Virus record (IMG/VR): IMGVR_UViG_3300030419_001398
Location: 1-29,622 of that record
DNA from: a virus
Length of the DNA stretch: 29,622 nt
Strand: one strand, 5' to 3'
The position numbers and the translations under genes are program-made. The notes under the pieces were generated by a model. That model was not told the DNA's origin and made no database searches. It saw only the letters and a program-made list of their open reading frames with translations. Position 1 is the stretch's first letter, and the number at the start of each line of letters is the position of its first letter. Of this stretch, positions 5,832 to 26,007 are shown in pieces.

Positions 5832-6133
5832 TATAATACCTCCTCTTCTAAAAATTCAATCTCATCTTCTTGATAGGTACATCTATCAAGTTCACTATTG
5901 TTAACAGATACATCTTCCATTTCTGAACCATCTGGTTTACTATGACTTTCTGATTTGTTTCTTGCTATATCTTCAGCTTCATCTTTAGTATATGCTTGAA
6001 CAACAAACTCTTCAGTAACTGTCTTATCTATATAAACTCTCCAAGTTCTAGGGTTCTCTTTTAGATATTGTTTTTCTTCTTCATCTAACTCTGGATATGT
6101 TATTGTTGTTTCTATTTTTTCTTTATACGACAT
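5831..6133 (-). CDS. Hypothetical acidic protein, 100 aa
   Basis: First gene of the operon driven by the promoter at 6157-6184, with AAGGAG 6 nt before the ATG. The middle segment TWRVYIDKTVTEEFVVQAYTKDEAEDIAR is a strand-strand-helix pattern common in small phage proteins of unknown function. The C-terminus is acidic and ends EEEVL. Family not recognised. Confidence 0.75.
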   Translation of the reverse strand: MSYKEKIETTITYPELDEEEKQYLKENPRTWRVYIDKTVTEEFVVQAYTKDEAEDIARNKSESHSKPDGSEMEDVSVNNSELDRCTYQEDEIEFLEEEVL

Positions 6134-6207: not shown

Positions 6208-6223
6208 TTACGCAACTGCGTAA
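6208..6223. repeat. 16-bp palindromic repeat, copy 1 of 5
   Basis: TTACGCAACTGCGTAA: 7-bp arms around a central AC. At this copy the symmetry extends to 13-bp arms with one mismatch. It lies between two operons, 23 bp upstream of the -35 box of the promoter at 6157-6184. The position suits an activator or operator site. Confidence 0.8.
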
Positions 6224-6974: not shown

Positions 6975-7712
6975 TTAATGAATAATGATGGTAATGTTTT
7001 TCTTAACTTTGCTACTTGTTCCACTACACATCATACAATCTGCACAAGGAACTAACTTTCTTCCTTTCCTTGCCACTTTATCAGAAAGGCATATTACCTC
7101 ATCTGATTCGATAGGTTCACTAGCTAGTCTAGTTCTAAAGGTTCTATACCCTAGCTTGTTTGCCTGTCGTTTCTCTTCTAACGAATCAACACTTGCCATA
7201 TTGAATCTAGAATTTGTACTATCACACTTCTGCCATTGGTGTGTGTAACCTGTGTTACCTAGTGTTCTACTTAACATCTTATTCCACACTTCACTAGGTA
7301 TAACTGCAGGGTCGCCATAGCTACCTACTCTTACAAATCTAAATGCAAGTAACTTGGCTAGTTTCTGTAAACTAATCTTTTTGTAATTACCTTTCTTGTA
7401 AGACTTCCATATTATGTAAGGTGCTTGAAATAATTTTACATAACACTTTCTCTTCTTGTTGATTGTCTTCAACCCATTACGCACAGAGTAAGACTTCTTA
7501 TCTCTCTTCTTGTCTACTAATACAACTTCACCTCTGTGTTTACAATCACCACAGATAAGTTTGTCTGCACCTGTGTTGACTGCTTCAATAGGATTGACAT
7601 TCTTAACAAATATCCAAGTCTGTGGCATATCACCTGTCTTAATATTGTTAGAATTGAATGTAACAATTCCTACTTTGTCATTGTCTTCGTAGAATATATA
7701 TCCATTAGACAT
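6975..7712 (-). CDS. Conserved Cys-rich phage protein, 245 aa
   Basis: By far the largest protein of the 9454-6242 operon. It carries C54-GD-C57-KHRG near the start, a further Cys at CYVKLFQAP, and a C-terminal PCADCMMCSG cluster, suggesting bound zinc. Central motifs are RVGSYGDPAVIPSEVW, NTGYTHQWQKC and NMASVDSLEEKRQANKLGYRTFR. I recall these motifs from an uncharacterised family widespread in phages but do not know a demonstrated activity. AT-rich composition matches its neighbours. A nucleic-acid-related role would be plausible for a Cys-rich phage protein. Confidence 0.8.
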   Translation of the reverse strand: MSNGYIFYEDNDKVGIVTFNSNNIKTGDMPQTWIFVKNVNPIEAVNTGADKLICGDCKHRGEVVLVDKKRDKKSYSVRNGLKTINKKRKCYVKLFQAPYIIWKSYKKGNYKKISLQKLAKLLAFRFVRVGSYGDPAVIPSEVWNKMLSRTLGNTGYTHQWQKCDSTNSRFNMASVDSLEEKRQANKLGYRTFRTRLASEPIESDEVICLSDKVARKGRKLVPCADCMMCSGTSSKVKKNITIIIH

Positions 7713-7715
7713 ATA

Positions 7716-7907
7716 TCACCTCGCAATTAACATTATTATTATTATAATAGAACTTATTAAACCTATAGTTACAAGAATACCATATGCTTTCCACCATTGC
7801 ATATCTCCCTTATTGTGTTGTCTTTTATATCTGTAATTGTTCACTAGTTTCTCTCTTTGTTGTGTATCTATTATTACTCTACGCAAATCTTTAGTTGTGT
7901 CAAACAT
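7716..7907 (-). CDS. Small membrane-anchored protein, 63 aa
   Basis: A basic soluble N-terminus (RRVIIDTQQREKLVNNYRYKR) is followed by one hydrophobic helix at residues 38-63 (WWKAYGILVTIGLISSIIII). This gives a C-terminal membrane anchor with a cytoplasmic head. Overlaps the upstream gene by 8 nt. A spanin or lysis role is not supported by a lipobox or partner. Function unknown. Confidence 0.7.
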   Translation of the reverse strand: MFDTTKDLRRVIIDTQQREKLVNNYRYKRQHNKGDMQWWKAYGILVTIGLISSIIIIIMLIAR

Positions 7908-8640: not shown

Positions 8641-8726
8641 TGGTGCGTGAGGTAGGATTTGCACCTACGAAGCCATATGGCGACTGATTTACAGTCAGTT
8701 GGGTTTGACTACTTCCCTACTCACGC
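8641..8726 (-). tRNA. tRNA-Tyr (anticodon GUA)
   Basis: Full cloverleaf on the minus strand. The acceptor GCGTGAG pairs with CTCACGC, with discriminator A and an encoded CCA (8641-8643). The D arm is GGG/CCC. The anticodon stem ACTGA/TCAGT holds loop CTGTAAA, giving anticodon GUA. A long variable arm (GCC-ATAT-GGC) is typical of bacterial tRNA-Tyr. The T arm is GTAGG/CCTAC. All stems are perfect, so it should be functional. It sits inside the small-gene operon and is probably released by host tRNA processing. Confidence 0.95.
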
Positions 8727-8731
8727 ATATT

Positions 8732-8989
8732 TTATAATAGTGTTGGATATAAGTCCTCTACTATGCTATCAAGTGAATCAGGTTTATCAAAGTCTTCACA
8801 TTCATTATTCTGTAATCCAAATAATATGAACATTACATCTTCATAATAAACTTCACTTAATTCTTCTCTTAATAAATACTTTTTATCTTTTATGTCACCA
8901 TACATAAGAGTATATATTTGTCTACCATTTATTTTTATATCTCTAGATGTAGTTACTCCAGATACTATTGATGTTCTAAATATTTTCAT
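8732..8989 (-). CDS. Hypothetical protein, 85 aa
   Basis: Beta-rich N-terminus (KIFRTSIVSGVTTSRDIKI, RQIYTLMYGDIKDKKYLL) and acidic C-terminus ending VEDLYPTLL. Coupled to the upstream gene by an ATGA overlap. The tRNA begins 5 nt downstream of its stop. Function unknown. Confidence 0.73.
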   Translation of the reverse strand: MKIFRTSIVSGVTTSRDIKINGRQIYTLMYGDIKDKKYLLREELSEVYYEDVMFILFGLQNNECEDFDKPDSLDSIVEDLYPTLL

Positions 8990-9192
8990 TTTACTATATC
9001 CTCTATCTCACCATCACTAACTTCAGTAGCATAGTCCCAAGTTTGTTTAGTAGTTACTTTCTTTTCATTTTGTTTTTCTTTTTCTTTGATAGCATAGTAT
9101 TCTTCTGTGTTCTCAAATTCATCCATACTATTGTCATAAGTATTCGTGTTCACTTCATCTTTTTTTACTTTGTAATCCATTAAGCTACACAT
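8986..9192 (-). CDS. Hypothetical charged protein, 68 aa
   Basis: Highly charged Glu/Lys-rich protein (EFENTEEYYAIKEKEKQNEKK). The ATG at 9192 has GGAG 8 nt upstream. An ATG at 9180 is an alternative. It contains at 9146-9158 an exact 13-base match to the iteron core found at 9562-9642, possibly by chance. Function unknown. Confidence 0.68.
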   Translation of the reverse strand: MCSLMDYKVKKDEVNTNTYDNSMDEFENTEEYYAIKEKEKQNEKKVTTKQTWDYATEVSDGEIEDIVK

Positions 9193-9454
9193 TATTATTT
9201 CTCCTCATAAAATATACTTTGTTGTTAGGTGTTGTCTTCATATTCTCTAGTGTGTGAGTGATTCGTTGTTGAGCATAACTCACATTACCAAGCTTGTTTA
9301 ACTCATTGCCTAAAAACTTTTTGATTCTATCTTGCTTGGTTATCTTGGTTACGCAACTGCGTAAGTTAGAATCTTTCTTGGTTACGCAACTGCGTAAGTT
9401 AGAATCTTTTAAGCTATTGTTTACTGCTCTATTAATAACTTGTCGTCTATTCAT
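9185..9454 (-). CDS. Basic protein with internal 11-residue tandem duplication, 89 aa
   Basis: First gene after the promoter at 9483-9510, with AAAGGAG before the ATG. Basic throughout. The 11-residue unit DSNLRSCVTKK is duplicated in tandem at about residues 17-38 because of a perfect 33-bp DNA duplication (9344-9409). The Asn/Leu/Arg-rich, Cys-containing repeat appears to arise from the palindrome sequence rather than from selection on the protein. The rest (QDRIKKFLGNELNKLGNVSY) looks helical. Function unknown. Confidence 0.65.
   Translation of the reverse strand: MNRRQVINRAVNNSLKDSNLRSCVTKKDSNLRSCVTKITKQDRIKKFLGNELNKLGNVSYAQQRITHTLENMKTTPNNKVYFMRRNNNV
9344..9409. repeat. Perfect 33-bp tandem duplication containing palindrome copies 2 and 3
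   Basis: Units 9344-9376 and 9377-9409 are identical. Each contains the 16-bp palindrome TTACGCAACTGCGTAA (9349-9364 and 9382-9397). The length is a multiple of three, so the host gene keeps its frame. Identical units suggest a recent duplication. Confidence 0.9.
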
Positions 9455-9482
9455 AAATGTTCTCCTTTATTATTATGATACC

Positions 9483-9510
9483 ATCATATCAAACCTATAT
9501 GTTGTGTCAA
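9483..9510 (-). promoter_or_regulatory. Sigma70-like promoter, leftward
   Basis: On the minus strand a perfect TTGACA (9505-9510) is followed by 16 nt and TATGAT (9483-9488, five of six). It should drive the operon from 9454 down to about 6242, including the tRNA. Palindrome copy 4 is centred about 70 bp upstream of the expected start, close to the arrangement at 6157-6223. Confidence 0.72.
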
Positions 9511-9538
9511 GCATTATTTTTCTTCAATATGTAGTAGG

Positions 9539-9554
9539 TTACGCAACTGCGTAA
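9539..9554. repeat. 16-bp palindromic repeat, copy 4 of 5
   Basis: Exact copy of TTACGCAACTGCGTAA in the same orientation as the others. It lies between the leftward promoter at 9483-9510 and the iteron array. Confidence 0.85.
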
Positions 9555-9561
9555 GTTAATC

Positions 9562-9646
9562 GTATTCACTTCATTGCTGTGTTCACTTCATAGTCGTATT
9601 CACTTCATTGCTGTGTTCACTTCATAGTCGTGTTCACTTCATATAA
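9562..9646. repeat. Five 17-bp iterons, origin candidate
   Basis: The core GT[A/G]TTCACTTCAT starts at 9562, 9579, 9596, 9613 and 9630, exactly every 17 bp. Alternate units differ consistently (ATTGCT versus ATAGTC), giving a 34-bp super-repeat. Direct repeats with a period of about 1.6 helical turns, next to an AT-rich stretch (9640-9672), resemble iteron origins of plasmids and phages. The region is non-coding. They could instead be tandem operators for a regulator. Confidence 0.7.
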
Positions 9647-9674
9647 AAAAATATATAGGGAAATAAAAAATATA

Positions 9675-9692
9675 GGTAGGGTAGGGTAGGGG
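9675..9692 (+). other. G-rich run, possible G-quadruplex
   Basis: GG-TA-GGG-TA-GGG-TA-GGGG: four G runs separated by TA, highly unusual in such AT-rich DNA. It can form at least a two-tier G-quadruplex on the plus strand. It lies between the AT-rich stretch after the iterons and the terminator. It may mark an origin or a transcription pause. Confidence 0.55.
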
Positions 9693-9708
9693 TAGTCAAA
9701 TTTTTGAC

Positions 9709-9744
9709 CAAAAAAAAGTCCCATATAAATTAATATATGGGACT
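9709..9744 (-). terminator. Rho-independent terminator of the 258-aa gene
   Basis: The arms AGTCCCATATA (9717-9727) and TATATGGGACT (9734-9744) are perfectly complementary with a 6-nt loop. On the minus strand the hairpin is followed by a run of eight U residues. It lies 10 nt after the stop of the gene at 9754-10530. It isolates that gene from the iteron region. Confidence 0.88.
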
Positions 9745-9753
9745 CTAGGGAGT

Positions 9754-10530
9754 TTAAACTGCTTGTTTTTTATCTTCAATTTTTAAGTCTTTAATGAAGT
9801 CTTCAACGCTCATATTTAAAGTTTTAGCATTAGATAATTTAGTAATATAGAATTGCATATCTCTAGAACTTAATTTCTTAAATGTTGGATATGTTTGAGC
9901 AAGTAACTCTAAAACTAAATTTTTGCTTTCTAGTTTCAATTCTTGAGCAATAGATACATCTTTTTTAGTATCTTGATTGGTAGCACCAGAAGGACTCTTT
10001 GATTCTTTCTTATCTTTATTTTTACTAAAGATTCCTTTTTTCTGGCAACTTGCATTTAATTGACTAGATAAAGTAATATTTTTAGTTTTTAGAAATTCTA
10101 AAACATTTTTAGAAGTTGCTTTTTTATTTCCTAAATATTTTGCAAGACTTTCATTTAGTAACTTATTATTACAAGGTTGGGTAATTCGATTAATATTTCC
10201 AGAATTAAAAAAGTTAAAAACAAAAATATCAGCAGTAATTTCGTCATTTTTAGTCTTTAAATTTTTAGTTTTATTTCTATCAATATCATTATCAGCAACT
10301 GACCCAACTCTAACAATCAATTTAGTTGATTCGCCACTTATTCCAATTAATTTAGATTTAACAAATTTCAATTTTTCTTTTGAATTTGTACAATCATTTT
10401 TATTATAATTTTCAGCCATAAAGATAGACTGAATACCTAATAAACTTGATTGTATATCTTTCTCATAATTAGAGACCATATTTAAATGAGTAACAACTTT
10501 AGTAGTAATAATTTCATTAAAATTTTGCAT
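9754..10530 (-). CDS. Protein of unknown function, 258 aa, beside the iterons
   Basis: A lone gene with its own promoter, leader and terminator. It is rich in Asn, Lys and Ser. Residues 1-125 look alpha/beta (KLIGISGESTKLIVRVGSVA, ITADIFVFNFF). Residues 130-165 look helical (LLNESLAKYLGNKK, NVLEFLKTKN). A Lys/Ser-rich linker at 168-192 is followed by a C-terminal helical domain (SSRDMQFYITKLSNAKTLN, SVEDFIKDLKIED). I recognise no family. Its isolated position between the iterons and the Fur-box array would suit a replication initiator or a regulator; that is inference only. Confidence 0.75.
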   Translation of the reverse strand: MQNFNEIITTKVVTHLNMVSNYEKDIQSSLLGIQSIFMAENYNKNDCTNSKEKLKFVKSKLIGISGESTKLIVRVGSVADNDIDRNKTKNLKTKNDEITADIFVFNFFNSGNINRITQPCNNKLLNESLAKYLGNKKATSKNVLEFLKTKNITLSSQLNASCQKKGIFSKNKDKKESKSPSGATNQDTKKDVSIAQELKLESKNLVLELLAQTYPTFKKLSSRDMQFYITKLSNAKTLNMSVEDFIKDLKIEDKKQAV

Positions 10531-10584
10531 AACAAAATCCTTTCATAATTAAGTGATTGAAAATCTTAAAACTTATTCTTTAAC

Positions 10585-10627
10585 GACCCCCAACTTATCT
10601 GGGTCTATATACCTTGTTAATTCAAGG
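10585..10627 (-). promoter_or_regulatory. Two adjacent hairpins in the leader of the 258-aa gene
   Basis: On the minus-strand transcript CCTTG/CAAGG with a 6-nt loop (10612-10627) comes first, then GACCC/GGGTC with an 11-nt loop (10585-10605). These are the only GC-rich stems in a leader of about 160 nt. No U run follows, so they are not an ordinary terminator. A structured regulatory leader is possible. Confidence 0.4.
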
Positions 10628-10699
10628 CGACTATGAAATAAAACCTAGAGGTAGTGCAAGTAATTTTAGTTACGATTACATAAATTTTAAACATACCTA

Positions 10700-10727
10700 A
10701 TTATCGCTATATGAGTAATTAAGTCAA
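10700..10727 (-). promoter_or_regulatory. Probable leftward promoter of the 258-aa gene
   Basis: On the minus strand TTGACT (10722-10727, five of six) is followed by 16 nt and GATAAT (10700-10705, five of six). It would give a leader of about 160 nt containing two hairpins. Weaker than the other promoters here. Confidence 0.5.
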
Positions 10728-10787
10728 CTAGTAAAAATATTAGTTTTTTTATTAGTCTGTAACACGCATAAAACCAACATTGTTAAC

Positions 10788-10803
10788 TTACGCAACTGCG
10801 TAA
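10788..10803. repeat. 16-bp palindromic repeat, copy 5 of 5
   Basis: Exact copy of TTACGCAACTGCGTAA, same orientation as the other four. Located 60 bp upstream of the -35 box of the leftward promoter at 10700-10727 and 43 bp from the Fur-box array. Confidence 0.85.
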
Positions 10804-10846
10804 CTTGATTAATCCTATAAGTAAATACTAGCGAATCACTTATTAA

Positions 10847-11025
10847 TTGAGAATTATTCGCAATAATAATGAGAATTATTAGCATTGATAATAATAATCA
10901 TTCTCAACTGTATTGTTTTAGTGAGAATCATTCGCAACTATGTAAATGATAATGATAATCGTTCTCAATGCTAATGAGAACTATTCTCAATCTATCCTAA
11001 CTATTGCAAATGAGAACTATTCTCA
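10847..11025. promoter_or_regulatory. Array of about seven Fur-box-like operators
   Basis: Seven near-palindromes lie within 179 bp, centred at about 10855, 10877, 10896, 10929, 10957, 10982 and 11018. GATAATAATAATCATTCTC (10887-10905) and GATAATGATAATCGTTCTC (10948-10966) each match the classical 19-bp Fur box GATAATGATAATCATTATC at 17 positions. The others follow TGAGAA-[CT]-x-ATTC-[TG]-C, for example TGAGAACTATTCTCA at 10975-10989 and 11011-11025. Fur with ferrous iron binds such sites and represses iron-uptake genes. Here they sit between divergent phage promoters, about 180 bp from either, so they may act as a sponge or as a control region. Confidence 0.75.
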
Positions 11026-11207
11026 ACTTAAGGTATCTTTTAGTTTGTTTCCTCTAGACCTATAACATATATATGTATACCCACAGAAAAAAATTATGTG
11101 CGTGTGTATAATCTAGATACCCCACCCCCATATATTTACCAAAATACTGGCTATGTTAATAAATATGTTGTAAAAAAACAACAAATAAAATAAAAATAAA
11201 ACAATGC
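11026..11207. other. Remainder of the divergent intergenic region
   Basis: No gene is seen. The sequence is AT-rich with a C-rich run (CCCCACCCCC near 11120-11130) and A-rich tracts just before the rightward promoter. An isolated TATAAT near 11110 lacks a good -35 partner. The A tracts at 11171-11203 may act as an UP element for the promoter at 11208. Confidence 0.4.
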
Positions 11208-11236
11208 TTGACAAACATGGGGGAGTTATGTATAAT
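11208..11236 (+). promoter_or_regulatory. Perfect consensus sigma70 promoter of the late region
   Basis: TTGACA (11208-11213), a 17-nt spacer and TATAAT (11231-11236): a full consensus promoter, preceded by A-rich tracts. Transcription would start near 11243, giving a 70-nt leader to the terminase gene. Such a strong host-type promoter suggests that host RNA polymerase, not a phage enzyme, transcribes the virion genes. Confidence 0.85.
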
Positions 11237-11312
11237 TATATATAGTTAAGAAAAATACTTATACTCTTTGTTTATCTTTTATTCTTTTTTTAATCTTCTT
11301 TTTATAAATATA

Positions 11313-12863
11313 ATGAATACAAATGAAAATAATACACAATTAGAAACTATTAATAACTATATTAGTCTATATAATAACTTAAATGATATAGATTTAAAAT
11401 ATTCTAAAGATAGTTTTCTTGAATTTGTTTACACAATGGCTCCAACCCTTGTTTCTGATTGGAAAATGGGTCGCCACATAGAAGTAATAAGTGAAAAATT
11501 AGAAAAATTAGAGTCTGGAGAGATAAAAAGGCTTATGGTCTTTCTACCTCCACGTAGTTCCAAGTCTGTAATCTGTTCCAAACTGTTTCCTGCATGGTAT
11601 ATTGGAAGAAATCCTACACATGAAATACTAACTGTTTCTCATAGTGACCAATTAAGTTCTGATTTTGGTAGAAGTGTAAGAGATATTGTTAATGATGAAA
11701 CATTTCAAAACATATTTAAAGGTGTTCAGCTACGAAGTGATGTAAGAGCTGCAGGAAAATGGAAGACTACCCACAATGGCACGTACTATGCAGCAGGTGT
11801 TAGGTCACAGATAGCAGGTCGAGGTGCACATATAGCAATTCTTGATGATGTGATGTCTGAAGAGGACTCATTCTCTGAAGCAGGTAGAAGATATGTTAAA
11901 GAATGGTATCCATCAGGATTAAGAACACGTATTATGCCCAATGGTTCCATATTAATTATTAATACTAGGTACCATTATGATGATTTATGTGGATGGTTAC
12001 TAAAACAACAAGAGAATATAGGAGATTATGCTGTAACTCCCTGGGATGTAGTGCGTATCCCTGCATGGTTAGACGAGGAGTCATCTTCGTTACTGCAATT
12101 ACCTGTGGGTTCAAGCTATTTTCCAGAATGGAAACCTGATGATGTTTTAAAGGTAGACGAAGCAGAGATAAAGGCATCCAATGGAGCAAGATACTGGAAC
12201 GCATTATATATGCAGGACCCAACTCCTGATGAAGGAGGAATAATAAAAAAGAAATGGATACGTTTCTGGGAACAAGATGCTCCTCCACCTTGTGAATTTA
12301 TAATACAAACGTATGATACTGCATTTTCCACATCAAGAACTGCAGATTATAGTGTAATACAAACATGGGGAATCTTTCATAGCTATGAAGATGATGAGAA
12401 TGGATATGAAACTTGTGTTGCTCATTTAATATTACTGGGAAATATAAAAGGAAGATTTGAATATCCAGAGTTAAGACGTATAGCTCAAAAGTTATACCAT
12501 GAACATAGACCTGATATATGTATGGTAGAAAAGAAAGCATCAGGACAATCACTTATACAAGATATGAGAAGAGCAGGTTTACCTGTTTTAGAATATTTAC
12601 CAGATAGAGATAAAGTAGCCAGAGTATATTCTGCAACTCCTATGATGGAAGCAGGTAGAGTTTGGATACCAGATAATAAAAAGTGGTCAGAAGACTTATT
12701 AGAAGAATTATTACGTTTTCCACATGCAGCTCATGATGACCAAGTTGATGCTATGACTATGGCAATACACTATATGAAAGAGTCTTGGCATTTAGAACAT
12801 CCTGAAGACCCAGAGTGGGATGACCCACCTATGAAAAAAAAGGTTGCATACTGGCGAACTTAA
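11313..12863 (+). CDS. terL: Terminase large subunit (DNA packaging ATPase-nuclease)
   Basis: The motor docks on the portal, translocates DNA into the prohead and cuts concatemers. The N-terminal ATPase has a Walker A-like PPRSSKS (residues 79-85) and Walker B IAILDD (174-179) with catalytic acidic residues following. The C-terminal RNase H-like nuclease shows YDTAFS with D334, VEKKASG with E406, and DDQVDA with D475/D476. The start at 11313 (ATG, 516 aa) is preferred over a TTG at 11268 that adds a hydrophobic stretch lacking conservation. No small terminase subunit is recognised next to it. First gene of the late operon. Confidence 0.96.
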   Translation: MNTNENNTQLETINNYISLYNNLNDIDLKYSKDSFLEFVYTMAPTLVSDWKMGRHIEVISEKLEKLESGEIKRLMVFLPPRSSKSVICSKLFPAWYIGRNPTHEILTVSHSDQLSSDFGRSVRDIVNDETFQNIFKGVQLRSDVRAAGKWKTTHNGTYYAAGVRSQIAGRGAHIAILDDVMSEEDSFSEAGRRYVKEWYPSGLRTRIMPNGSILIINTRYHYDDLCGWLLKQQENIGDYAVTPWDVVRIPAWLDEESSSLLQLPVGSSYFPEWKPDDVLKVDEAEIKASNGARYWNALYMQDPTPDEGGIIKKKWIRFWEQDAPPPCEFIIQTYDTAFSTSRTADYSVIQTWGIFHSYEDDENGYETCVAHLILLGNIKGRFEYPELRRIAQKLYHEHRPDICMVEKKASGQSLIQDMRRAGLPVLEYLPDRDKVARVYSATPMMEAGRVWIPDNKKWSEDLLEELLRFPHAAHDDQVDAMTMAIHYMKESWHLEHPEDPEWDDPPMKKKVAYWRT

Positions 12864-22431: not shown

Positions 22432-22554
22432 ATGAACATAACACCTGAACTAATTACTACAATACATAATATATCTTGGTTTGATGGTATACTTTATATT
22501 ATACTTGGATTAGGTGTTTATTCAGCATATAGATGGATAAAAAATAAAATATAA
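22432..22554 (+). CDS. Small membrane peptide, 40 aa
   Basis: Translated by eye: a polar N-terminus (NITPELITTIHNISW), one hydrophobic helix at residues 18-35 (DGILYIILGLGVYSAYRW) and a basic end (KNKI). It would insert with one membrane span. It lies one base after the previous stop. Ends exactly where the riboswitch-like element begins. Function unknown; holin-like size is noted but not evidence. Confidence 0.6.
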   Translation: MNITPELITTIHNISWFDGILYIILGLGVYSAYRWIKNKI

Positions 22555-22616
22555 TCGTTTGACTCATTGAGTTGGAAGTAGGTATCGAAGAAACGCACTA
22601 ACTTTAATTAGGAGGT
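22555..22616 (+). promoter_or_regulatory. Glutamine-riboswitch-like RNA (glnA/glutamine class)
   Basis: P1 is CGTTT (22556-22560) with AAACG (22591-22595). P2 is a small hairpin GACTC-ATT-GAGTT (22561-22573). The conserved GGAAGTAGG follows (22574-22582), then CGAAG (22586-22590) leading into AAACGC. This order (CGUU-, stem, GGAAGUAGG, CGAAG-AACGC) is the signature I know for the glutamine aptamer. The usual P3 is nearly absent (GG-UAU-C). Downstream CTAA/TTAG (22598-22611) can form beside the GGAGG (22611-22615), so translational control of the 33-aa gene is likely. Confidence 0.8.
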
Positions 22617-23381: not shown

Positions 23382-23671
23382 TGTCTAGAAGAAGTACAAA
23401 AGCAAGAGCAATGTGTGATTCATGTTCATTTGTTTATGACATGAGAGTTATGAAATTAAACAGTTATGATATGGTAGTATGTCCTGAATGTTTTGAAGGT
23501 AATTACGATTTAAAAAATCATCCACAAAATAAAGCTGCTGATGTAAGAGAGGATACAATAGTTCCTAACGCAAGACCAGATAGTGGTGGTAGAAATATAA
23601 TATGGGAATCAGCTAATTTTACATGGAATGATATTCCAGAACCAGATACTAGAAAATGGGGTACAGTATGA
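23381..23671 (+). CDS. Small Cys-pair virion-operon protein, 96 aa
   Basis: Contains C12-DS-C15 and C34-PE-C37 (MCDSCSFVYD; VVCPECFEGN), a classical single zinc ribbon. The C-terminal half is NARPDSGGRNIIWESANFTW, then NDIPEPDTRKWG, which looks extended. TAATG overlap with adaptor 2. Similar proteins lie between adaptor and tail genes in other marine podoviruses. Function unknown, probably a tail component. Confidence 0.78.
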   Translation: MSRRSTKARAMCDSCSFVYDMRVMKLNSYDMVVCPECFEGNYDLKNHPQNKAADVREDTIVPNARPDSGGRNIIWESANFTWNDIPEPDTRKWGTV

Positions 23672-26007
23672 GTGATTTAACAGATAAATTAATTAACGCA
23701 ACATATAAAAAATTATTACAAATAGAAACATCTGGTAATACAGGAGCTGATGGAACTTTAAGAAAAATACAAACAGGTGATGGAACAAGTATTGCTTTAA
23801 AAATAGCAACAAGTGCTGTTGAAGTATCAGGTAATTTAGGTGTTACTAATAATGCTTCTGTAGCAGGAGATTTACAAATAACAAATAAAGTATGTGCTTC
23901 TGCTTTTTATGGTGATGGCTCTAATCTTACAGGTGTTACTATGTCTGTTGGAGGTAATATATCTGTAGGTAATGCAACAGTAGGTGGTAATCTTTATGTT
24001 AGTGGAACTACTACAGTTGTGGGAGCAACACATTTACAAAGTTCATTAAGTGTAGCAGCAGGTACATCAATAGGTGGTAATCTAAATGTATTAGGTACAG
24101 CTACAGTATCTGGAGAAACAGGTTTTCTTGGAGCAGTTAGAGTTTCAGGTAATACAACAATAGGTGGTACATTATCTGTAGGTGGTGCAACACATCTTGG
24201 TTCTACATTAACAGTAGCAGGTAATACAACTTTAACAGGAACACTTGGTGTAGGTGGTGCTGCTAATTTTGCAAGCACAGCAACTATTGCAGGTAATACT
24301 TCTATAGGTGGAACATTATCAGTAGGAGGAGCTACTCATTTAGCAAGTACATTAACAGTAGCAGGTAATACTACTATGACAGGTAACTTGGGAGTTGGTG
24401 GCACATTAACTGCTGTAGGTAAAGCTGAATTTGATGGAGATGTATGTGTTTCAGGTAATACAGCTTTAGTAGGTAATGTTTCAATAGGTGGTACGTCTAA
24501 TACTACAGGTAAAGCAGAATTTGAAGGTGATGTATCTGTATCAGGTAATGTAAATATTGGTGGAACAACTACTATAGCAGGAGCAGTATCATTAGGTAGT
24601 ACACTTGATGTAAATAGCAACGTATCTATAGGTGGTACATCTAATATAACAGGTAAAGCAGAATTTGAAGGTGATGTATCTGTATCAGGTGATATAAATA
24701 TTGGTGGTACAGCAACAATAGCTAGTAATGTATCTATAGGTGGTACAGTAACAATAGGTGGAGCAAATGTACAAGCTGCAAATGCTAAAGTATGTGCTAG
24801 TGCTTTTTATGGAGATGGTGCTAATTTAACAAATGTACCTACAGGAGCCATATCAGGTAATATATCAGTATCTAATGCTGTTGTTGGAGGAACATTACAA
24901 GTATCTTCTACAGCTACTATAACAGGAGCTGTATCTTTAGGAAGTACATTAGATGTAGCAGGTAATACATCAATAGGTGGTACATCCAATATAACAGGTA
25001 AAGCTGAATTTGAAGGAGATGTTTCAGTATCAGGAGATATGAATATTGGAGGTCATACAACTATAGCAGGTGCAGTACAATTAAATTCTACTTTAAGTGT
25101 TGCAGGAGAAGCTCATTTAAAAGATGCAGTAAGTATAGGAACAACACTTGTTGTAGGAGGTAAGGCAGAATTTGATAGTGATGTTTGTGTATCTGGTAAT
25201 ACAGCTTTAGTAGGTAATGTATCTATAGGTGGTACATCCAATATAACAGGTAAAGCAGAGTTTGAGGGTGACGTATCAGTAAGTGGTAATGTTGCAATAG
25301 GTGGCACAACAACAATAACAGGTGCAGTATCTCTTGGCAGTACATTAGATGTTGCAGGTGATGCTTCTGTATCTGGTGATTTAAATATAGGTGGACATGC
25401 TACTATAGCAGGTGCAGTTCAACTAGGTTCTACATTAAGTGTTGCAGGAACAACTCATTTACAAGACGCAGTAAGTTTAGCAAGTACACTTGTTGTAGGT
25501 GGCAAAGCAGAGTTTGATGGAGACGTTTGTATATCAGGTAATTCACAATTAGTAGGTACTGCTAAAATTACAGGTGCTACAACAATAACAGGTAATTCAG
25601 GATTTTTAGGTACAGTAAGAGTATCAGGTAATACTTCATTAGAAGGACAATTACAATTAACAAAAAGTGCAGCAGCAGTTGTATGTGCAACAGCTATTAA
25701 TGGTGTAACATCTGTATCATTAAACTTTGGTGCATGTCAAAACTTTTATACATCAGTAACTGCAGCACATACTTTAGCACAACCTATAGGATGTAGAACA
25801 GGACAAACAGGTAGTATTTTCTTACACCAAGATGGAGGTAGTGGTACAATGGCATATCATGCAGATTTTAAATTTATAGGTGGTACAGACCCAACCATGT
25901 CAACAGCAGATGATGCAGTAGATAGATTAGATTATATTGTAGTATCTGCATCTAGTGATGGAGTTGGAGGAGATATTCAAATGATAATTTCACAGGCATA
26001 CGCATAA
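23668..26007 (+). CDS. Tail fibre protein with beta-repeat shaft, 779 aa
   Basis: Receptor-contacting fibre. The N-terminal 45 residues (LTDKLINATYKKLLQIETSG) probably attach to the tail. Residues about 55-660 are many short repeats of the kind VSGNxxIGGTxTIxGAV with regular Gly and Asn, predicting a long triple-stranded beta-helix-like shaft. KVCASAFYGDG[SA]NLT appears at two places. The C-terminal about 110 residues (VCATAINGVTSVSLNFGACQ to the end) form a separate beta domain, the likely tip or knob. Start at 23668 overlaps the upstream stop as ATGA. An in-frame ATG at 23656 is less likely. Confidence 0.88.
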   Translation: MSDLTDKLINATYKKLLQIETSGNTGADGTLRKIQTGDGTSIALKIATSAVEVSGNLGVTNNASVAGDLQITNKVCASAFYGDGSNLTGVTMSVGGNISVGNATVGGNLYVSGTTTVVGATHLQSSLSVAAGTSIGGNLNVLGTATVSGETGFLGAVRVSGNTTIGGTLSVGGATHLGSTLTVAGNTTLTGTLGVGGAANFASTATIAGNTSIGGTLSVGGATHLASTLTVAGNTTMTGNLGVGGTLTAVGKAEFDGDVCVSGNTALVGNVSIGGTSNTTGKAEFEGDVSVSGNVNIGGTTTIAGAVSLGSTLDVNSNVSIGGTSNITGKAEFEGDVSVSGDINIGGTATIASNVSIGGTVTIGGANVQAANAKVCASAFYGDGANLTNVPTGAISGNISVSNAVVGGTLQVSSTATITGAVSLGSTLDVAGNTSIGGTSNITGKAEFEGDVSVSGDMNIGGHTTIAGAVQLNSTLSVAGEAHLKDAVSIGTTLVVGGKAEFDSDVCVSGNTALVGNVSIGGTSNITGKAEFEGDVSVSGNVAIGGTTTITGAVSLGSTLDVAGDASVSGDLNIGGHATIAGAVQLGSTLSVAGTTHLQDAVSLASTLVVGGKAEFDGDVCISGNSQLVGTAKITGATTITGNSGFLGTVRVSGNTSLEGQLQLTKSAAAVVCATAINGVTSVSLNFGACQNFYTSVTAAHTLAQPIGCRTGQTGSIFLHQDGGSGTMAYHADFKFIGGTDPTMSTADDAVDRLDYIVVSASSDGVGGDIQMIISQAYA
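24484..25286 (+). repeat. Long imperfect repeat in the fibre gene
   Basis: A module of about 66 bp encoding IGGTSN[IT]TGKAEFEGDVSVSG recurs at about 24484, 24625, 24970 and 25221 with 85-95% identity by eye. Related shorter units (IGGT, VSGN, GSTL) fill the rest. High DNA identity between modules suggests recent expansion or recombination in the shaft. Confidence 0.75.

Follow-up and report, generated by a model that had tools for sequence, protein, structure and literature searches.

Does the cluster of direct repeats between the divergent gene blocks of this phage mark a start of replication, or does it belong to the control of the early genes? Both early control and the start of replication seem to be little studied in uncultivated marine phages, and no experiment was found in the available text of the literature searched. 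The window, i.e., the whole stretch of DNA analyzed, corresponds to a 29,622-base virus record from IMG/VR, in which early genes run leftward from 9454 and structural genes run rightward from the terminase gene at 11307. The cluster was originally predicted to be an iteron-type replication origin. Comparison with related records makes it look more like a switch region that precedes the early genes than like an established origin of replication. We regard it as about an even prospect that the early leftward operon has its control region here, with the cluster as the upstream part.

Organization of the repeat cluster

The architecture described in the original prediction is present (Table 1). 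Five direct repeats follow one another with an exact 17-bp period and are succeeded by an AT-rich segment and a G-run, all within noncoding DNA between a terminator and a leftward promoter found by scan. The longest in-register run of identical 10-mers in the window (periods of 10 to 40) was five; in simulated sequences (first-order Markov, window length), the best run was two in 81 of 100 and zero in 19 of 100, which places the array far beyond chance. The alternation of units that had been proposed to add a 34-bp period is equally clear, with identities of 97% at 34 bp versus 74 to 76% at 17 bp, and a similar alternation of AGTCGT and TG[TC][TC]GT was seen by eye in relatives with at least three repeats. 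The easy-melting character of the AT tract is just mildly exceptional for an AT-rich phage, with 0.66% of 35-bp, 4.5% of 50-bp, and 9.5% of 100-bp windows being less stable. Two elements were absent from the original prediction: a sixth perfect iteron within the second early gene and a 16-bp palindrome, TTACGCAACTGCGTAA, of which the window holds five copies, with none expected by chance. The probability of such codons for Asp-Glu-Val-Asn at the in-gene iteron is 0.019 under leftward-gene codon usage, with related copies being nonindependent. Seen from the left-facing, near-consensus promoter PL, the upstream region in the clade begins with the palindrome, continues with two to five direct repeats, the AT tract, and the G-run, and then reaches the terminator of the adjacent gene. 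Promoter-like sites numbered 19 versus 13.8 expected, and therefore only the best promoter calls were trusted.

Table 1. Positions of the repeats, palindromes, promoters, terminator, and genes around the cluster in the window
Feature	Position	Strand	Remark
Palindrome TTACGCAACTGCGTAA, site i	6208..6223		Between early genes
Early leftward operon, gene 2	8986..9192	-	Contains the sixth iteron
Sixth perfect iteron, GTGTTCACTTCAT	9146..9158	+	Within coding frame 8986-9192 (-)
Early leftward operon, gene 1	9185..9454	-	
Palindrome TTACGCAACTGCGTAA, site ii, first copy	9349..9364		Within first early gene
Palindrome TTACGCAACTGCGTAA, site ii, second copy	9382..9397		Within first early gene
Palindrome TATGAT-ACC-ATCATA, possible operator	9474..9488		Covers PL -10; kept in alignment A1, one loop letter varies; putative function
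Early leftward promoter PL	9483..9510	-	TTGACA, 16 bp, TATGAT; 11/12 consensus letters; kept in alignment A1
Palindrome TTACGCAACTGCGTAA, site iii	9539..9554		Between PL and array
Iteron array, five 17-bp units	9558..9642	+	Cores TTCACTTCAT at 9565, 9582, 9599, 9616, 9633
AT tract	9643..9674		Separates last iteron from G-run
G-run GGTAGGGTAGGGTAGGGG	9675..9692	+	C-rich on leftward strand
Intrinsic terminator of ORF258	9715..9746	-	Scan
ORF258, hypervariable protein, proposed palindrome binder	9754..10530	-	Binding suggested by co-variation
Predicted ORF258 promoter	10700..10727	-	TTGACT, 16, GATAAT; 10/12, consensus match only
Palindrome TTACGCAACTGCGTAA, site iv	10788..10803		Upstream of predicted ORF258 promoter
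Late promoter PR before terminase	11208..11236	+	TTGACA, 17, TATAAT; 12/12
Terminase large subunit	11307..12863	+	phrog_38, E 3.7e-112

Further features were observed elsewhere in the window. Eight sites with at most three mismatches from TGAGAATNATTCTCA, a Fur-box-like sequence, lie at 10848-11025 upstream of the late promoter, several of them 22 bp apart, and form a second iteron-like array. Clusters of this type also occur in L009, L010, and L089 and, further off, in L080, and they are absent or reduced to a single site in L006, L007, L008, L012, and L104. Across the window, Fur-like sites with at most four mismatches are near chance (34 versus a mean of 30.1), and only the cluster at 10848-11025 is notable. 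The early operon contains a tRNA-Tyr (gta) on the minus strand at 8641-8726, and the protein at 6975-7712, which has relatives in 147 phage records, matches the C-terminal part of phrog_2554 (unknown function). A glutamine riboswitch (RF01739, 39.7 bits) is located at 22554-22599 between structural genes, and positions 23656-26007 encode a 783-aa protein that is built from numerous similar repeats and by eye resembles a tail fiber.

Conservation of the array in relatives

The array was found in at least 12 IMG/VR records (the window, L006, L007, L008, L009, the L004/L010 record, L089, L011, L012, L013, L104, and L148), a nonexhaustive list drawn from the best 80 terminase matches, L104 not being among them, and from DNA patterns. 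L011, L012, and L013 are near-identical at the array region. In alignment A1, which comprises nine rows of relatives including the window, the last iteron, the AT tract, and the core TATAGGTAGGG are all kept, and the order of palindrome, iterons, AT tract, G-run, and terminator is the same in all nine rows, the L004 row being partial with its palindrome cut off. L148, found later, has the same order and a G-run, together with a diverged AT tract and weaker upstream repeats (TTCACTCCAT twice and TTCACTACAT). Array copy number ranges from two units in L089 to five in the window. Wherever the sequence of a clade member extends to the second early gene, the in-gene iteron is perfect, and L009 and L089 each carry two iterons within that gene. 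The distance from the first iteron to the -35 hexamer of PL is 32 bp in five of nine members and 58 to 60 bp in the other four. The gap of 26 to 28 bp between these classes is a non-integer number of helical turns, and a strict activator geometry is therefore unsupported; shared ancestry may be the source of the fixed repeat-promoter spacing.

Among the terminase matches listed, repeats were present at 7 of the 40 loci inspected (2.5 to 4 kb upstream, window included), and all seven terminases are at least 91% identical to that of the window. The locus of L104, with a terminase identity of 87%, was picked up through the DNA pattern only. In G014 (terminase identity, 88%; read as L151), iterons were not found in 45 kb with one mismatch allowed, nor was the G-run found at the corresponding place. 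The layout and the primase-helicase are retained in this phage, and the place of the array is taken by different direct repeats and a palindrome, with a like promoter beside them. L014, a more distant relative, has its own TGTCACA direct repeats near the corresponding place (6036-6118 and 7672-7769), beside the same kind of promoter. Another more distant relative, L021, carries a 37-bp repeat of its own near the corresponding place (5867-5987).

A nucleotide search with positions 8700-11300 gave no match to any phage record, a search for the leader pattern of PL added nothing further, and no prophage or host relatives were present among 26 stretches in genome_contigs. The G-run was rejected as a general landmark because approximately half of the 24 stretches with TATAGGTAGGGTAGGG belong to unrelated phages. 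The combined pattern of iteron and AT tract was found in 31 stretches, of which 21 were new (L125 to L145) and proved by eye to be unrelated coding sequence, and L086, which has paired iterons, was not accepted as a clade member because its contig appears unrelated.

Co-variation of ORF258 and the palindromes

ORF258 has no match in Pfam and no sequence match in the PDB, and its sole PHROG match is weak (phrog_1182, "tail"; E 0.001). Structure prediction gave a poor model (mean pLDDT, 59), and a structural search with it returned no fold match (best PDB E-value, 3.7). Identities among members range from 27 to 97% for ORF258 and from 82 to 100% for the terminases. Palindromes occur at corresponding places in the relatives with different letters: TTACGCAACCTTGCGTAA in L006, L012, L104, and L148, TTACGC-TATGTA-GCGTAA in L007, TTTACTCAATTGAGTAAA in L008, TTACGCAATGCGTAA in L089, and TCGCAG-NN-CTGCGA in G014, the last with exactly four copies in 45 kb. 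The inner spacing of the half-sites varies among these types. Each record holds three to five palindromes, and copies within one phage are mostly alike. Exceptions are L009, in which two forms are mixed; L007, whose second gene carries one L006-type copy and whose site i is a hybrid; and L012 and L148, with a single altered copy each (at site i in L012). Site iii is close to the early promoter and site iv to the predicted promoter of ORF258; both promoters are assigned by consensus only, and neither site overlaps the hexamers.

The palindrome letters change in step with the ORF258 allele and not with the terminase. L006 and L104 share 97% identity in ORF258 and have identical palindromes with terminases of 88% identity, whereas L006 and L007 have 99% identical terminases, an ORF258 identity of 29%, and different palindromes. 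In Mantel tests on a small sample of 10 members, in which the L006 palindrome type is entered four times, palindrome type correlated with ORF258 (r 0.79) and not with the terminase (r 0.09, p 0.36). With terminase distance held constant, the partial Mantel r was 0.80 (p 0.0002; 10 members), and it was 0.87 (p 0.0009; 9 members) after removal of G014 and 0.74 (p 0.0054; 7 members) after removal of G014 and two L006-type members. Linkage contributes to the co-variation, since sites iii and iv adjoin ORF258; sites i and ii lie further off. ORF258 and its palindromes look like a repressor with its operators, as far as sequence can tell. The original prediction had proposed the product of this gene as a binder of the iterons, and the pairing with the palindromes shifts that binder to a different target: the iterons are near-constant across members while ORF258 varies, so a role as iteron initiator is disfavored. 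ORF258 was also considered as a small terminase and rejected; an eight-member profile found no convincing relative in 877 upstream reading frames, including the small terminase region of HTVC027P (best E, 0.029).

Replication origin or promoter control

Iteron origins such as lambda ori, RK2 oriV, and P1 oriR have tandem repeats of approximately 17 to 22 bp by an AT-rich stretch. The cluster shares this typical look, its direct repeats fall in the same size class, and the clade retains repeats, AT tract, and G-run as a unit. Were it such an origin, an initiator would bind the 17-bp repeats, melt the AT tract, which is among the least stable 35-bp windows, and load a helicase, and the site may double as promoter control; we consider this possible but doubtful. 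Its location between divergent blocks coincides with a change of GC skew, which the original prediction had offered as a check near 9.6 kb. The sign does change between the early and late blocks, but skew tracks the direction of the genes throughout, so that origin and transcription are not separated by it; in G001, G002, G003, and G005, too, the sign changes between gene blocks, as does gene direction. Third-position GC skew gave no signal in small counts (+0.06 for the left genes and +0.09 for ORF258), and both measures were discarded for locating an origin, the former being confounded by gene direction and the latter having too few letters. Unlike in the known iteron origins, no initiator gene was recognized in the 20 proteins scanned (10 from G001 and 10 from G014), which is a weak argument because many early genes are unannotated, and a repeat copy lies inside an early-operon gene. 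The relatives instead point to a gp4/PolA replisome, with the phrog_239 primase/helicase (gp4 type) in seven of nine relatives' records and PolA in 7 of 13 longer ones, and ORF258 does not co-vary with the array. An origin is not favored because G014 has the layout and the same primase-helicase without the array, because the repeat-PL spacing is fixed, and because a perfect copy lies in the second early gene.

That replisome type would fit an origin primed by transcription, for which T7 and mitochondria offer parallels: a transcript of the G-run would form an R-loop by the AT tract and prime the leading strand for the gp4-like/PolA replisome. The G-run core is retained in all nine A1 rows. The run is G-rich on the plus strand, so the priming transcript must go rightward, but a good rightward promoter is missing from the DNA just before it (one scan call at 9450-9479, 9/12), and G014 is without the G-run, which leaves this analogy quite improbable. 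We also regard a packaging or terminase recognition site as highly improbable. The cluster does lie 1.7 kb upstream of the terminase gene; however, no small terminase gene was recognized nearby, and a C-rich motif by the terminase (CCCCACCCC; CCCCACCCCC at 11120-11129 of the window) is more widespread, occurring at 25 of 71 loci, while the iterons are limited to one clade among the matches listed. These 71 loci comprise 67 of the best 80 terminase loci (the other 13 have fewer than 300 bases upstream) plus the window, L089, L104, and L151; a promoter of the PR type, in which the -35/-10 spacer holds GTGGGGAG or TGGGGGAG, is present at 39 of them.

If the cluster controls the early promoter, a putative protein shared by the clade, encoded by phage or host, would bind the repeats cooperatively and set the activity of PL, with the iteron copy in gene 2 of the operon possibly acting as an auxiliary site. 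The ORF258 protein, as its co-variation suggests, would bind the palindromes at the four conserved places and repress both the early genes and itself. The AT tract and G-run may aid DNA opening for the same switch, or they may provide a C-rich leftward-strand stretch behind the terminator that backs up Rho termination.

Comparison with known systems and implications

The nearest named terminases, at approximately 40% identity, are those of HTVC027P/HTVC023P-type pelagiphages, from which our guess is that the host is SAR11. These are PolA phages with genomes near 58 kb, and the available part of the source names no such control region for them (PMC9599517); HTVC027P has no phrog_239 match, in contrast to the relatives noted above. 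The RNA hairpins of the lambda N/boxB system are transcribed from DNA downstream of the promoter, whereas PL and the predicted ORF258 promoter have their sites (iii and iv, respectively) on the upstream side. The repressor and stoperators of Cluster A mycobacteriophages offer a likeness: according to the available text, the dispersed sites of that regulator vary with it from phage to phage and are found both close to the early promoter and throughout the early region (PMC6550527). The stoperators described there are asymmetric and mostly in one orientation (PMC6550527); instead of the many asymmetric, same-orientation sites of the L5 type, the records here hold a few palindromes each, and a tyrosine integrase (PF00589) is absent from all nine relatives' records, most of them possibly fragments.

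The pairing of ORF258 with the palindromes is the most useful new result. We tentatively propose, at somewhat less than an even chance, that ORF258 represents a new family of phage immunity-type regulators without recognized relatives, with approximately 30% identity between phages whose terminases are 97 to 99% identical. Its own palindromic operators would be rewritten along with it at the four conserved places, of which two are situated within or between early genes, and an independent, near-invariant iteron array would serve the same promoter. Such a repressor system, if real, would provide a sequence handle on mutual exclusion among these phages, which show no integrase, and it could be read directly from metagenomes.
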